Below, in pieces: positions 23,587 through 34,204 of a stretch of 64,000 nt of DNA. The translations under genes were made by a program, and so were the position numbers. The first letter of the stretch is position 1. Every line of letters begins with the position of its first letter. Under the pieces are notes generated by a model that was not told the DNA's origin, did not search any database, and saw only the letters and a program-made list of their open reading frames with translations. Source of the DNA: a virus; IMG/VR virus record IMGVR_UViG_3300006916_000042, positions 62,001 through 126,000 of that record; one strand, 5' to 3'.

Positions 23587-23616
23587 GGTCATCCACTATT
23601 GTGGGTGGCCTTTTTT
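23587..23616 (+). terminator. Rho-independent terminator
   Basis: GGTCATCCAC (23587-23596) pairs with GTGGGTGGCC (23601-23610, with G-U pairs) around a TATT loop, followed by T6. It separates the operon ending at 23556 from phoH. Confidence 0.85.
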
Positions 23617-23651
23617 CGTTTATAGCCAACCAAAGGAAAGAAACACCAACC

Positions 23652-24335
23652 ATGGCCAAAAGAAACAAACCCAAGCAGCATTTTGAAATGTCCCATATAA
23701 GCCCCATGAACGACAATCAAAAGAGAGCTATGCAATCATACCGTTCAGGTCTTAATGTGGTCCTACACGGCTTTGCAGGAACGGGAAAGACATATCTATC
23801 GTTGTATTTGGCATTGGAAGAGTTGATAACCAAGAAATCCTTTGAGTTTGATAAGGTGATCATCGTGAGAAGTGTTGTGGCCAGCCGGGACATGGGATTT
23901 CTACCCGGTTCAATACGTGAGAAATCACGGATATTTGAAGAGCCGTATAAACAGATTGCTGATGATCTCTTTGGGAGAGGTGATGGCTATGAAGTCCTGA
24001 AGATGAAGAAGATGGTGGAGTTTACCACCACGTCATATCTGAGAGGTATGACATTCGAAAGGGCCATAGTGATTGTTGATGAAATCCAGAACATGACATT
24101 CTCTGAACTGGATACTGTCATAACCCGGATGGGTGACACATCCAGAATCATATTCTCTGGTGATTTCAGGCAAACTGACTTAAAAAAGTCAGAAGAGTTG
24201 TCTGGGGTGAAACAGTTTCTAAATATAACTAAGAGGATGAAGAATTTTGAGTATGTTGAATTCACCAAGGAAGACATTGTAAGGTCCGGGTTGGTGAAGG
24301 ATTACATCATTACAAAAACTGAAATGTCAGGATGA
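23652..24335 (+). CDS. phoH: PhoH-like ATPase
   Basis: 227 residues from ATG 23652; an in-frame ATG at 23601 lies in the terminator. Walker A is GFAGTGKTY (residues 40-48) and Walker B is AIVIVDEIQN, with SGDFRQTDL as a sensor-type motif. PhoH-like proteins are RecA-fold ATPases, sometimes with RNA helicase/nuclease partners, common in marine phages; their phage role is unsettled. It is followed closely by a PD-(D/E)XK nuclease gene. Confidence 0.88.
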   Translation: MAKRNKPKQHFEMSHISPMNDNQKRAMQSYRSGLNVVLHGFAGTGKTYLSLYLALEELITKKSFEFDKVIIVRSVVASRDMGFLPGSIREKSRIFEEPYKQIADDLFGRGDGYEVLKMKKMVEFTTTSYLRGMTFERAIVIVDEIQNMTFSELDTVITRMGDTSRIIFSGDFRQTDLKKSEELSGVKQFLNITKRMKNFEYVEFTKEDIVRSGLVKDYIITKTEMSG

Positions 24336-24338
24336 TAC

Positions 24339-24986
24339 GTGTTAAAGAAGCAAACACTTGATGTGAGATACGACAAGGGTTTCAGGGAATACCAGTTGCC
24401 TACGGGTGACTGGGTTCCATCTGTCACCACCATTTTAGGACAGACAAAGCCAGAATCGGCAAAGGCTGGTCTGGAGAACTGGAGAAAAAGGGTTGGTGAT
24501 GAGGAAGCCGATAGGATAACCAAAAGAGCCGGTAGCAATGGTGAGAAGCTACACACAGCTTGTGAGAATTATCTGAAATATGAGGACGTTGAATTTGAAG
24601 ACGATCCCTTCACCAAATCTTTGTTCATGAATATAAGACCGGTTCTGGACAGGATAACACCTTTCACCCAAGAAGTTCAATTGTGGTCAACACGACTCAA
24701 GACGGCTGGACGGGTTGATGTTATCGGATTGTTTGACGTTGATATGTCAATTATCGATTTCAAGAATTCCAGAAAGATGAAGAAACGGGAATGGATTGAT
24801 GACTATTTCATCCAAGCCACAACCTATTCATTGATGTATTATGAGATGACAGGGTGCTTTGTAAAGAACATCGTCATCCCTATGACTTCGTTGGAAGAGA
24901 ACTACACCAAGATTTTCAAAGGTCAGGTGTTGGACTACAAGGATGAAGCCATAAAAAGAATCACTAGCTGGAAAGAACCACCATGA
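24339..24986 (+). CDS. PD-(D/E)XK exonuclease (RecB/Cas4/MGME1-like)
   Basis: 215 residues with a GTG start at 24339, three nt after phoH stops. Nuclease core: GEKLHTACENYL (helical motif with Glu/His), TAGRVDVIG, then SIIDFKNS (the D-x-K element) and the Tyr/Gln helix DYFIQATTYSLMYYEM. This family includes Cas4, AddB/RecB nuclease domains and mitochondrial MGME1. It probably trims ssDNA ends during recombination or replication. Its stop overlaps the protease start. Confidence 0.8.
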   Translation: MLKKQTLDVRYDKGFREYQLPTGDWVPSVTTILGQTKPESAKAGLENWRKRVGDEEADRITKRAGSNGEKLHTACENYLKYEDVEFEDDPFTKSLFMNIRPVLDRITPFTQEVQLWSTRLKTAGRVDVIGLFDVDMSIIDFKNSRKMKKREWIDDYFIQATTYSLMYYEMTGCFVKNIVIPMTSLEENYTKIFKGQVLDYKDEAIKRITSWKEPP

Positions 24987-25933
24987 AAAACGTTTTCATC
25001 ACATTCTCACTAACCGTCATGATCATGATATTTGGAACACTGTACCTGTTGAACGAAAATACAGTGGAGTCTCTTGTCAAAAGGAATGTCAACTCTGTTT
25101 ATCTCGTAGAGAGTGAAAGTATCAATAAAGAAGGTAAGAAGGGTGTTGGAATGGGCACGGGGTTCCTTTTCAATAAGGAATATGTTGTGACTAATGCCCA
25201 CGTTGTTGGGAATGCAAAGGTTGTCACCTTGATTAGTAAAGATGGGAAGAAAATCCGGGTGCCGGTTGTTGCTACGGATGTAGATGCAGATGTTGCAGTG
25301 GTCCGGTTGGTTGGTGAGAATGCTAAAAATCCCCCCAGAGTTCTGAGATTTTGCAGACGTGATGAGATTGTACTGGGTGAGGATGTAATTGGTATCGGAC
25401 ACCCATGGGGTTTGATCTGGACGATCACACGTGGTATTGTGTCCGGTTATGACAGGTTTGCCGGATCAGGACGATCCGTACCATTGGTCCAGACCGACAC
25501 GAAAATCCTTCAGGGTAATTCTGGTGGTCCATTGATATCCGTAAAAAACGATTGTGTTGTAGCCATGAATACAATGGTGAATGTTGCTGATCAGACAAAA
25601 GGCAGATTCGGCAACATCCCATTCTCTATTGATGGTGATTATCTCAGAACCCGTATCCATGACCTGATCAAACATAAGAAGATTAAGAACCTGATTCTTG
25701 GAATCCAGTTCGATAGTGACAAGGGTTTGTATGTCAAGGTGGTTGTGCCGTTCAGTCTGGCAAGTAAAATAGACATGAGGATCGGTGATATCATCCATTC
25801 TATCAATGGTAAGCCGTTGACAGACGTGATGGTGTTGAAATCCACCCTGTATAAAATCAGGCAGGATGAGAAATTTATCGTTACAGTTCAAAGGGATGGA
25901 AAAAAATTGAACATTTTTGGAAAAAACTCTTGA
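24983..25933 (+). CDS. HtrA/DegP-like serine protease with PDZ domain
   Basis: 316 residues. An N-terminal hydrophobic helix (residues 3-22) acts as signal anchor, so the protease domain should be periplasmic. Chymotrypsin-fold triad: H73 (TNAHVV), D103 (DADVAVV), S180 (QGNSGGP). A single PDZ-like domain follows (about 215-310; DMRIGDIIHSINGKPLTDV). Full-length DegP has two PDZ domains, so this resembles DegS. It is rare in T4-like phages as far as I know. It might degrade envelope proteins or help surface exclusion or lysis. It starts in an ATGA overlap with the nuclease gene. Confidence 0.88.
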   Translation: MKNVFITFSLTVMIMIFGTLYLLNENTVESLVKRNVNSVYLVESESINKEGKKGVGMGTGFLFNKEYVVTNAHVVGNAKVVTLISKDGKKIRVPVVATDVDADVAVVRLVGENAKNPPRVLRFCRRDEIVLGEDVIGIGHPWGLIWTITRGIVSGYDRFAGSGRSVPLVQTDTKILQGNSGGPLISVKNDCVVAMNTMVNVADQTKGRFGNIPFSIDGDYLRTRIHDLIKHKKIKNLILGIQFDSDKGLYVKVVVPFSLASKIDMRIGDIIHSINGKPLTDVMVLKSTLYKIRQDEKFIVTVQRDGKKLNIFGKNS

Positions 25934-30884: not shown

Positions 30885-31110
30885 ACCATCTTCCGAAATG
30901 AACGATTTCACCAACTATGTCATTAAAAACAAAGGTTGTTTTGTCAGAGTCCGATGTGGTTTCTGGGTAAGACCGGAATTTGAAGCTGCTGAAGACGATA
31001 CATGTTCCGATGGTTTTGTGACCGATTGTGGTAATTATCGTTGGAATATGGATGGAACCTCTGTCACGGGTCGTGATTATGACATGATGGAAGTTGAAAA
31101 AAGTTCTTGA
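30850..31110 (+). CDS. Small unknown protein
   Basis: 86 residues from ATG 30850, overlapping the previous gene by 35 nt; ATG 30898 is an alternative without overlap but lacks a ribosome site. It has three Cys (NKGCFVRVRCGF, DDTCSDGFVTDCG), which may chelate metal. It ends just before the tmRNA promoter, whose -35 includes its stop region. Confidence 0.6.
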   Translation: MKGTVLKNPATKPSSEMNDFTNYVIKNKGCFVRVRCGFWVRPEFEAAEDDTCSDGFVTDCGNYRWNMDGTSVTGRDYDMMEVEKSS

Positions 31111-31137
31111 CATTCGTTCAGAGAAGTGCCATAAATA
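31107..31137 (+). promoter_or_regulatory. tmRNA promoter, sigma70-type with overlapping late box
   Basis: TTGACA (31107-31112), 17-nt spacer, CATAAA (31130-31135). The -10 overlaps CATAAATA (31130-31137), the late-box motif of this phage, so transcription could continue through early and late phases. Confidence 0.65.
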
Positions 31138-31142
31138 GTCTT

Positions 31143-31465
31143 GTTAACGTTGAAGGAAACAAAAAGCACTTAAGACTGGGGGGCAGTACCCCACATCTCC
31201 ACCATGAGCACATTGAAGTGTTGGCTGTAGAACAAAGCACTCTCGATGTTAGACAGTTTTGTAAAATGACTGATGTGCTCTTGATGGGGATGAAACAGGA
31301 TCGATTAGGTGAGTAATGAGTAACTGGAGTTAACTGGTTGGCCGACTGGCTAGAAAACAAATGCAAACGATAACTTTGCACCTATGGCTCTTGCTGCCTA
31401 ACCCTTTGTGGTTAGAATCCTGAGTACGGGGGTCCGGTGGAACCTAGCAACAGAATCCACCAACT
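31143..31465 (+). ncRNA. ssrA: Circularly permuted two-piece tmRNA (ssrA)
   Basis: Gene order is acceptor piece, intervening loop, coding piece. The acceptor piece (about 31143-31204) ends in a T arm TGGGG-GGCAGTA-CCCCA (31177-31193), CATCTCC (31194-31200), A, CCA. The coding piece starts GGGGATG (31286-31292), which pairs with CATCTCC over seven bp including the alanine identity pair G3-U70. The excised segment 31205-31285 is closed by GAGCACAT/ATGTGCTC. The tag frame at 31363-31401 reads ANDNFAPMALAA then TAA. A CTAACC/GGTTAG hairpin contains the stop, and GGTGGA/TCCACC (31436-31461) follows. The RNA charges with alanine, rescues stalled ribosomes with SmpB and tags proteins for ClpXP-type proteolysis. 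The 3' end of the coding piece is approximate. Confidence 0.95.
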
Positions 31466-31470
31466 AATTT

Positions 31471-31743
31471 GAATTCCACCATGTTGGGGGTCATGCACCA
31501 ATATGGTTCCTTCGAGAGACGACCGGTTACCGGTAATTGAGAAGGTGTTACAAGAACTAAGGATCATGAACATCCTGAAAGCACACTGGGCACTAAACCC
31601 GGAAGTCCAACGTAGTTTGATTGGCCCAATTGGCTTGAGGCCGTGGTAGTGTTAAAGTAGCAGGATACTAATTCGGTTGACCGGTCGAGATTTTGTGTAT
31701 GGTGCCATGTAGAGTATACACATATGCTTGAGGGGTGGAATTC
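31471..31743 (+). ncRNA. Large candidate structured RNA with nested long-range helices
   Basis: GAATTCCACC (31471-31480) is perfectly complementary to GGTGGAATTC (31734-31743). Nested inside, CATGCACC (31492-31499) pairs with GGTGCCATG (31701-31709, one bulged C) and CGACCGGT (31520-31527) with ACCGGTCG (31680-31687). Local hairpins GGAT/ATCC (near 31561), GGG/CCC and GGCC/GGCC lie in the centre. No coding frame fits. It is about 273 nt, directly downstream of the tmRNA and without an intervening terminator, so it is probably co-transcribed. It does not show the RNase P or group I intron core motifs I would expect. Confidence 0.6.
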
Positions 31744-31850
31744 CTGATCTGTGAACAGCAGAAGTCTTGACCGGCAACCGGATGCTTATTAAACCAAAAC
31801 GTAAAAGGAAATGACAATGTTCTGAATGCCTCATTCAAAAACCACCCTAG

Positions 31851-31903
31851 TTTGATATGCAGTGACATATCAAAATGATGAAGTGATATACAATTACATA
31901 TCA
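31851..31903 (+). promoter_or_regulatory. Repeated TGATATG/CATATCA boxes upstream of 31923
   Basis: TTTGATATG (31851-31859) and CATATCAAA (31866-31874) form a perfect 9-bp inverted repeat; a second imperfect pair is TGATATA (31884-31890)/CATATCA (31897-31903). Located just upstream of the start at 31923, they may be operators or a translational control hairpin. Confidence 0.5.
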
Positions 31904-31922
31904 AACATAAGGAAACTTGAAA

Positions 31923-32288
31923 ATGAGTATCGAACTCAAAGTCAAATTCAACACCCTCTCTGAGGAAACGAAGATCATCAAACGGGAAGAACAGAAAGCC
32001 CTTAAGTATGGTCGAAAACTTTCCAAGCTGTGGAAACCAAATGATGTACAATATTGCAGGTTTGAAAACTTGCATCACCACCGGATCAGTGTGGTTCGTC
32101 CGACAGCCAGAGCCACACATCTTGCCCGTGGTTATATCCGTGGTCTGAAATATAAGCAGATTGAGAACTATACGAACAGGGTGCCGACCCATCTCATTTC
32201 AAAGATCGAACCAATGATCCAGAAGTATGGGTTGGAAAAACATGCCAATGTGACTCCGGAAGCCATTCGTGAATGGATGTTTGCATAA
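31923..32288 (+). CDS. Basic unknown protein between RNA genes
   Basis: 121 residues from ATG 31923, about eight nt after AAGGAAA; an in-frame TTG at 31917 is less likely. Basic and helical (KIIKREEQKALKYGRKLSKL, RATHLARGYIRGLKYKQIEN), ending EAIREWMFA. The fold may be helix-turn-helix-like (GLKYKQIENYTNRVPTHLIS). It sits between the structured RNAs and a tRNA-like element, so an RNA- or DNA-binding role is plausible but unproven. Confidence 0.65.
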   Translation: MSIELKVKFNTLSEETKIIKREEQKALKYGRKLSKLWKPNDVQYCRFENLHHHRISVVRPTARATHLARGYIRGLKYKQIENYTNRVPTHLISKIEPMIQKYGLEKHANVTPEAIREWMFA

Positions 32289-32295
32289 GGTTAAA

Positions 32296-32366
32296 GTCTG
32301 TGTTCACTGGGTGATCTAGGGATTTCAAACCCGATGGTTGGGGTTCAATTCCCCACACAGGCTCCA
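32296..32366 (+). ncRNA. Short tRNA-like element with encoded CCA
   Basis: Acceptor GTCTGTG (32296-32302) pairs with CACAGGC (32356-32362), discriminator T, then CCA (32364-32366). The T arm is TGGGG-TTCAATT-CCCCA. The D region is shortened (CAC/GTG with a three-nt loop) and the anticodon arm has a GGG/CCC core with an eight-nt ATTTCAAA loop, leaving the anticodon ambiguous (TTC or TCA). Total 68 nt plus CCA, shorter than standard. It may be a degenerate or unusual tRNA, or a mimic. Confidence 0.55.
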
Positions 32367-32565: not shown

Positions 32566-33174
32566 ATGAGAATGGACCCTTTTGATGTGTTCAAAACATA
32601 TCTAGCTATCAAGTTACACTTCACCACCAAGCAGTATGACTACAATTTGTATGGTGGATCAATCAAGAATACCTCATTGGAAAAATTCAATGAGAGGAAA
32701 GACAAGATGTTCTTTCATAAACTGGCCAGCAAGTACCGTGAGAGTGAAATGGTAGATTTCATGGTGGCCAATCTCAAGTCCGGTGAGTCTGTATGGGTGG
32801 GTAAACTGCTCACACCAGAGGCACACAAGGAATTCACACAATTCACGAAACGGAAACAAGCTATCGGGGAATTCTTCAAGAGTGACCTTGAGAAGCTGTT
32901 CAGTCAAGTTGATGAACCCATCGAAGCCCTTCAGGTGATAGATGGGCAGAACCCATTGATACTAAAGGAAATATATTCTGGTGAGTTAGGGGTTGAAACC
33001 TTGATCATCCTTAACGATATATTGCCTATCGAATACTTTTCAGCCATAGATTCCAAACTACAGGAAGACATACTATGGCCGGATACCCGTAATAAGGCCA
33101 TGAAGCTTAGATCGTTTCTGAAATACTCTAAGCCGAAAATGAAGAACATCCTGAAGAAGTTCATCTCAGTCTAA
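32566..33174 (+). CDS. 59: Loader of replicative helicase, T4 gp59-like
   Basis: 202 residues (T4 gp59 is 217). FNERKDKMFFHKLASKYRES aligns with the conserved KRRDKYFF-QKLSEKY segment of T4 gp59, followed by FMVANLKSGESVWVGKLL. Gp59 loads the gp41 helicase onto gp32-coated forks. It lies directly before gene 32, as expected functionally. A 15-codon frame (32522-32569) with its own ATG ends in an ATGA overlap with this start and could be a leader peptide that couples translation. Confidence 0.82.
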   Translation: MRMDPFDVFKTYLAIKLHFTTKQYDYNLYGGSIKNTSLEKFNERKDKMFFHKLASKYRESEMVDFMVANLKSGESVWVGKLLTPEAHKEFTQFTKRKQAIGEFFKSDLEKLFSQVDEPIEALQVIDGQNPLILKEIYSGELGVETLIILNDILPIEYFSAIDSKLQEDILWPDTRNKAMKLRSFLKYSKPKMKNILKKFISV

Positions 33175-33253: not shown

Positions 33254-34204
33254 ATGTATACTTTAGAAAGCCTGAAGAAGAAGTCTGGAAATCTGGAATC
33301 TCTGTCAAAAGAGATGTCAAAGATGAACAAGACTTATGAAAAAGCAGATGACCAGAGATTCTGGACTCCAACATCTGACAAAGCCGGTAATGCAATGGCT
33401 ATTATCCGGTTCCTGCCAGCCTCACCAGCAGATGGTGATGATGGTGTACCATTCCAACGTTATTGGACTCACGGGTTCAAGGGTAAGAATGGTAAGTGGT
33501 ATATTGAAAAGTCCCTAACCAGCATTCAGCAGGAAGACCCTGTTTCTGAATACAATACATGGCTATGGGACCATGGTGAAGGTACGGCACAAAGGGAGTT
33601 TGTTTCCCGGTACTCAAAAAGACGTTTGAGTTATGTGTCCAACATCCTTGTTGTCAATGATCCGGCAAAACCGGATAACAATGGCAAGGTATTCCTGTTC
33701 AGGTATGGTATCAAGATTTTTGACAAGATCAATAATCTGATGAATCCTGATGTTGAGTTGGGTGAAGTTCCTATCAATGCCTTTGATCCTTTTAAGGGTG
33801 CAAACTTCAAACTCAAGAAGAAGTTGGAAAAGTCTGGTCCAAACTCTTGGCCAAACTATGACGACTCAACATTTGAGCCGATGAGTGCTATTGACGAAGA
33901 CCCTGAAAAGGTTCTTGAAATCTGCAACAGCACATATGGTATCAAGGAATTTGTTGATCCAAAGAACTATGAATCCTATGAAACTCTTCTGGCAAAGCTG
34001 GATCGGGTTGTTGGTACATCTTCCAAGGAACTTATTACCGGATCACCATCAGGTAAGAAGAAGGAAGAGAAGCCAAAAGCAGAACAAGCTGCTAGTGATG
34101 ATGATGAAGATGATGAAGTGCCTTTTGATTTGGATGATGCAGCAGATAAAGCATCTGAAGATGACGATGATGAATTGGCATACTTCAATAATCTTGGTGA
34201 CTAA
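33254..34204 (+). CDS. 32: Single-stranded DNA-binding protein, T4 gp32-like
   Basis: 316 residues. N-terminal basic segment for cooperativity (YTLESLKKKSGNLESLSKEM), OB-fold core with KWYIEKSLTS and DPVSEYNTWLW, and a long acidic C-tail (EEKPKAEQAASDDDEDDEVP onward) that recruits replication proteins. The His-x-Cys-x-Cys-Cys zinc site of T4 gp32 is absent: this region has no Cys. I recall the same in cyanophage gp32. Upstream is an AT-rich leader; a strong bidirectional terminator follows. Confidence 0.9.
   Translation: MYTLESLKKKSGNLESLSKEMSKMNKTYEKADDQRFWTPTSDKAGNAMAIIRFLPASPADGDDGVPFQRYWTHGFKGKNGKWYIEKSLTSIQQEDPVSEYNTWLWDHGEGTAQREFVSRYSKRRLSYVSNILVVNDPAKPDNNGKVFLFRYGIKIFDKINNLMNPDVELGEVPINAFDPFKGANFKLKKKLEKSGPNSWPNYDDSTFEPMSAIDEDPEKVLEICNSTYGIKEFVDPKNYESYETLLAKLDRVVGTSSKELITGSPSGKKKEEKPKAEQAASDDDEDDEVPFDLDDAADKASEDDDDELAYFNNLGD

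Follow-up and report, generated by a model that had tools for sequence, protein, structure and literature searches.

Transfer-messenger RNA (tmRNA) is the bacterial RNA by which stalled ribosomes are released, and its genes in phages have been surveyed before. The tmRNA database holds 79 phage tmRNA sequences (PMC11915505), and the survey published with the phage Melnitz listed 133 unique phage tmRNAs, 53 of which were two-piece forms, 50 of them marine or aquatic (PMC9004378). Melnitz itself (MZ577097) is a Methylophilales phage with a two-piece tmRNA that infects the gammaproteobacterial host OM43; its alpha-like tmRNA was taken as the record of an earlier SAR11 host, and a host switch was inferred (PMC9004378). 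Permuted tmRNAs are likewise present in the T4-like Pelagibacter phages Mosig EXVC030M (MT647606) and HTVC008M (NC_020484). Here, a gene of this type is described in the virus record IMGVR_UViG_3300006916_000042 (161,858 bp), of which bases 62001–126000 were analysed; this stretch of 64,000 nucleotides is called the window, and positions refer to it. The window has a G+C content of 42.4%, and the T4-like phage genes detected include those for the gp59 helicase loader, gp32, and baseplate and tail proteins; no close DNA relatives were found among known phages. An earlier, sequence-only reading of the window had overstated the novelty of the element, since descriptions of two-piece tmRNAs in phages date back to 2022. 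From sequence comparisons we judge it probable (roughly 70%) that the element has long been maintained as a translation gene in a T4-like phage lineage, where it serves host-assisted ribosome rescue during infection, and that it is not a recent copy of a host ssrA gene.

The region 31103–31465 on the plus strand encodes an intact tmRNA of the permuted, two-piece form, as the sequence-only reading had proposed. ARAGORN calls a permuted tmRNA at 31112–31492 (+) with the tag ANDNFAPMALAA followed by a stop. The alphaproteobacterial covariance model of Rfam (RF01849, alpha_tmRNA) matches 31103–31465 with 130.4 bits (E 2.7e-35) against a cut-off of 50, and the model RF04321 (tmRNA_permuted) gives 102.4 bits (cut-off 47). 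Every structural part named in the earlier reading is present in the sequence, and all lie on the plus strand. The tRNA-like domain is permuted, with its 3′ half first, then the precursor loop, and then the 5′ half with the tag. The acceptor piece (31143–31204, 5′ end approximate, from the sequence and the Rfam alignment) contains the T arm with loop GGCAGTA (31177–31193), the acceptor 3′ strand CATCTCC (31194–31200, U70 at 31198) and A73-CCA (31201–31204). It is followed by the precursor loop (31205–31285), whose stem pairs GAGCACA (31206–31212) with TGTGCTC (31274–31280) and which, by analogy with known two-piece tmRNAs, is presumably cut out during processing. The coding piece (31286–31465, 3′ end approximate, from the same sources) opens with the acceptor 5′ strand GGGGATG (31286–31292), so that a 7-bp acceptor stem spans both pieces and includes the G3-U70 pair for alanine charging (31288/31198). 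The tag reading frame located by ARAGORN (31363–31398) closes with a hydrophobic degron and the stop codon TAA (31399–31401), around which the hairpin CTAACC-CTTTGT-GGTTAG is formed (31398–31415). In the alignment and the sequence, a 3′ hairpin pairs GGTGGA (31436–31441) with TCCACC (31456–31461).

The tRNA-like domain bears the signs of selection. A diverse set of 44 phage tmRNAs retains G3-U70 without exception (44/44), and where bases differ in the T stem and at three acceptor pairs, both partners have changed so that no pair is broken. Such constancy, together with paired changes, is the mark expected of selection for alanine charging and folding. The consensus fold was derived from these same 44 sequences, and pairs beyond the acceptor and T stems, some of which are mismatched, are less certain.

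From these features we infer the following course of events. Host tRNA-processing enzymes would cut the precursor RNA into two pieces that remain joined by base pairing, and the host alanyl-tRNA synthetase would charge the RNA by way of G3-U70. During infection, host SmpB and EF-Tu would then deliver it to ribosomes that have stalled on mRNAs that are cut or lack a stop codon; reliance on host SmpB is proposed because the record encodes none of its own. The tag would be added, the product destroyed by host ClpXP-type proteases, and the ribosomes freed for phage translation. The likeliest benefit to the phage would be extra rescue capacity at a time when mRNAs are cut. The host machinery should be present, given that 263 of 289 alphaproteobacterial genomes hold an alpha tmRNA of their own, and a host with its own ssrA is very likely. 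The record contains 25 tRNA genes, all outside the window, which point to a broad phage translation kit.

The tag could be read in another way, namely that the phage RNA is a decoy which competes with or poisons host trans-translation and so shifts tag fate or proteolysis in favour of the phage. In line with this, when ANDNFAPMALAA and its stop were searched for with a degenerate pattern, 75 viral contigs matched but not one of 84,980 prokaryotic genomes did, and this genome collection readily yields tmRNAs whose tags come close, such as ANDNFAPVALAA. On the other hand, the phage RNA has an unbroken tag frame with a common ALAA degron at its end, bacteria have similar MALAA ends, and neither a conserved tag frame nor a stop hairpin is needed for a decoy to act. 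This makes the decoy an unlikely explanation. The sequence-only reading had also suggested that the APMALAA end could alter recognition by ClpXP. There is no ground for this, because the C-terminus is ordinary (ALAA is the usual end of a tag) and bacteria themselves use ANDNEMALAA and ANDNRMALAA. A tag private to phages would make phage-driven tagging measurable by mass spectrometry. In trees, ANDNFAPMALAA is scattered over several separate phage groups; the tag therefore either goes back to the ancestor of these phages or arose more than once. Short tags occur in related phage tmRNAs: ANESYAMAA, ANELAMAA and ANDEQFALAA (contigs L011, L038 and L185).

Rescue as a lasting phage function is also consistent with the position of the gene. 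In dozens of tmRNA-bearing metagenomic phage contigs, as judged by matches to proteins of the window phage, the common order is PhoH, exonuclease, tmRNA, and then gp59 and gp32, with a thymidylate synthase or tRNA gene often close to the tmRNA. The window tmRNA lies in the same replication-gene neighbourhood of exonuclease, gp59 and gp32. Upstream lie the genes for PhoH (23601–24335, +, phrog_170) and a PD-(D/E)XK-type exonuclease (24339–24986, +, phrog_298), a pair that also precedes the tmRNA in numerous phage contigs; downstream lie those for the gp59 helicase loader (32566–33174, +, phrog_269) and the gp32 single-stranded DNA-binding protein (33254–34204, +, phrog_224), the gp59/gp32 assignment resting also on PF08993. 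In the window, a protease gene and small open reading frames (ORFs) separate the exonuclease gene from the tmRNA. This protease, encoded between the exonuclease and the tmRNA region at 24983–25933 (+), is trypsin-like with a PDZ domain and resembles HtrA/DegP. When phage contigs were fetched with the gp32 protein and 40 of their records were checked, many of them short, 10 of the 40 contained a permuted tmRNA scoring above the cut-off; at least 120 stretches of viral contigs matched a short tag motif. Among contigs with the exact tag and a permuted call by ARAGORN (n = 41), at least one flank (PhoH/exonuclease upstream or gp59/gp32 downstream) was conserved in 38 and both in 23, while contigs retrieved with a looser tag pattern (n = 52) had at least one flank in 31 and both in 16. 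In the SAR11 phage Mosig, an SsrA is annotated at the matching position; in HMO-2011 no tmRNA was seen. Six of the contigs (L196, L211, L232, L236, L239 and L244) carry a tRNA-Ala(tgc) gene directly 3′ of the phage tmRNA, and at these sites ARAGORN gives a second, overlapping reading as a standard (non-permuted) tmRNA whose tag is identical.

For the trees, core sequences consisting of the acceptor piece and the coding piece through the tag were used. Bacterial rows came from three sources: alphaproteobacterial tmRNAs among 81 genome loci that matched an 18-base motif, high-scoring matches among the 289 alphaproteobacterial genomes, and 30 lower-scoring genomes, mostly small. With tag codons included, 79 phage rows stand apart from 89 bacterial rows (support 99/94). 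Without tag codons, and with Melnitz and HTVC008M added, 88 bacterial rows group together with a single long-branched phage row, L119 (97/98); a single clean split between phages and bacteria thus fails by this stray row, although the AU test does not reject it (p 0.40). The columns that separate phage from bacterial rows most clearly are found in the 5′ portion of the acceptor piece, and the nearest rows to the window tmRNA are those of three phages (L106, L145 and L008; identity 73–78%). On these trees, which were not rooted with an outgroup and in which no row is identified by name as SAR11, the phage tmRNAs look like an old phage-owned lineage, since they branch apart from the bacterial ones, which argues against recent capture from a host. 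Phages can integrate at or acquire ssrA (PMC9004378), and the RNA is of the alpha type, as it would be in a host gene recently taken up as a passenger with no phage-specific role. That explanation is largely refuted and very improbable: the position is conserved in many diverged phages, the phage sequences are set apart from the 88–89 bacterial tmRNAs, and the phage copies share matched base-pair changes.

Several points weigh against a long-kept rescue gene. The trees rest on few columns (about 150–190), and their phage rows were mostly chosen by the tag motif. No such tmRNA is present in the T4-like relatives Cr30, phiM12 and P-RSM4, and hence the gene is dispensable in related phages. Its 130 bits also fall below most bacterial alpha tmRNAs (top matches 240–312 bits, low tail 97–203). 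This low score and some mismatches beyond the acceptor and T stems might suggest a decaying relic, functionless in this phage, but every key element is intact (G3-U70, CCA, the tag frame with its stop, and the two hairpins), which leaves little chance of that.

The claim that the gene has its own promoter with a late box fared less well. TTGACA (31107–31112) and CATAAA(TA) (31130–31137), on the plus strand and 17 nucleotides apart, are indeed present and fit 10 of 12 consensus positions. The promoter is nonetheless unproven, because a consensus sigma-70 scan does not call the pair and the late box is not enriched: the record has 11 copies of CATAAATA where 7.3 are expected, and 5 of the form TATAAATA where 4.8 are expected. 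A significant late-promoter box was therefore rejected.

Further elements follow the tmRNA. At 31668–31788 (+) a strong multi-branched RNA fold is predicted, in which a closing helix of about 21 bp encloses three hairpins (−48.9 kcal/mol, z −5.7, none of 200 shuffles as stable, for a region picked after a longer fold had been viewed); it has no Rfam match. Two tandem palindromes, TGATATGCAGTGACATATCA and TGATATACAATTACATATCA, lie at 31850–31906 just 5′ of the ORF 31917–32288 and look like operator sites. At 32296–32366 (+) there is a tRNA-like element with a 7-bp acceptor stem, an encoded CCA and a perfect T arm, an odd D/anticodon region (GGG-ATTTCAAA-CCC), and a strong hairpin on its 3′ side. 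ARAGORN does not call it, and its Rfam matches to tRNA-Sec and mascRNA are weak and below cut-off. Stop-codon recoding, considered from its UCA-like loop, was rejected, because 45 of 131 long ORFs end in TGA, which is thus in common use as a stop. The RNAs downstream of the tmRNA had no blastn match in the fetched loci.

Compared with the described phages, the window phage has the gene order of Mosig (nuclease, tmRNA, gp33, ThyX, gp59, gp32). After the tmRNA, however, the window has an apparently non-coding RNA stretch where Mosig has gp33/ThyX, and the tags differ (GEDNFALAA in Mosig, ANFNEYALAA in HTVC008M). Melnitz, which is marine, resembles the window in having a two-piece tmRNA in a T4-like phage. 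Melnitz has a different tag, ANDNYVPVDYALAA, and a glutamine riboswitch predicted at the 3′ domain; a Melnitz-like riboswitch 3′ of the window tmRNA was rejected, with no Rfam match at E ≤ 1. The chromosomal tmRNA of the Caulobacter type (RF01849) shares with the window the permuted order, the T loop GGCRGUA, G3-U70 and an ANDN-type tag. Alphaproteobacterial chromosomal tmRNAs nevertheless form a separate tree branch, the window RNA scores lower, and the acceptor-piece motif is AUAAACG-like in bacteria and GUUGA-like in phages. The sequence-only reading had held that the two-piece form pinpoints the host group. An alphaproteobacterial host is likely, but it is not pinpointed, because Melnitz has the same type of RNA in a phage of OM43 and because phage tmRNAs branch apart. 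Whether T4-like phages of alphaproteobacteria and their relatives possess an ancient tmRNA lineage that evolves separately, carries tags of its own and has an altered motif in the acceptor piece is in our view evenly balanced; it would be a phage-adapted rescue RNA that travels with the phage from host to host. Such a lineage would explain the alpha-like tmRNA of Melnitz equally well as an earlier SAR11 host, so that the tmRNA type of a phage is unsafe as a simple host marker. The data suggest that some T4-like phages carry ribosome rescue as a lasting function and not through an accident of gene capture. The gene type itself was already known from Melnitz and its counterparts; what is new in these data is its conserved position, its grouping on the phage side, the constancy of G3-U70 with paired stem changes across the 44 phage tmRNAs, and its phage-private tag.
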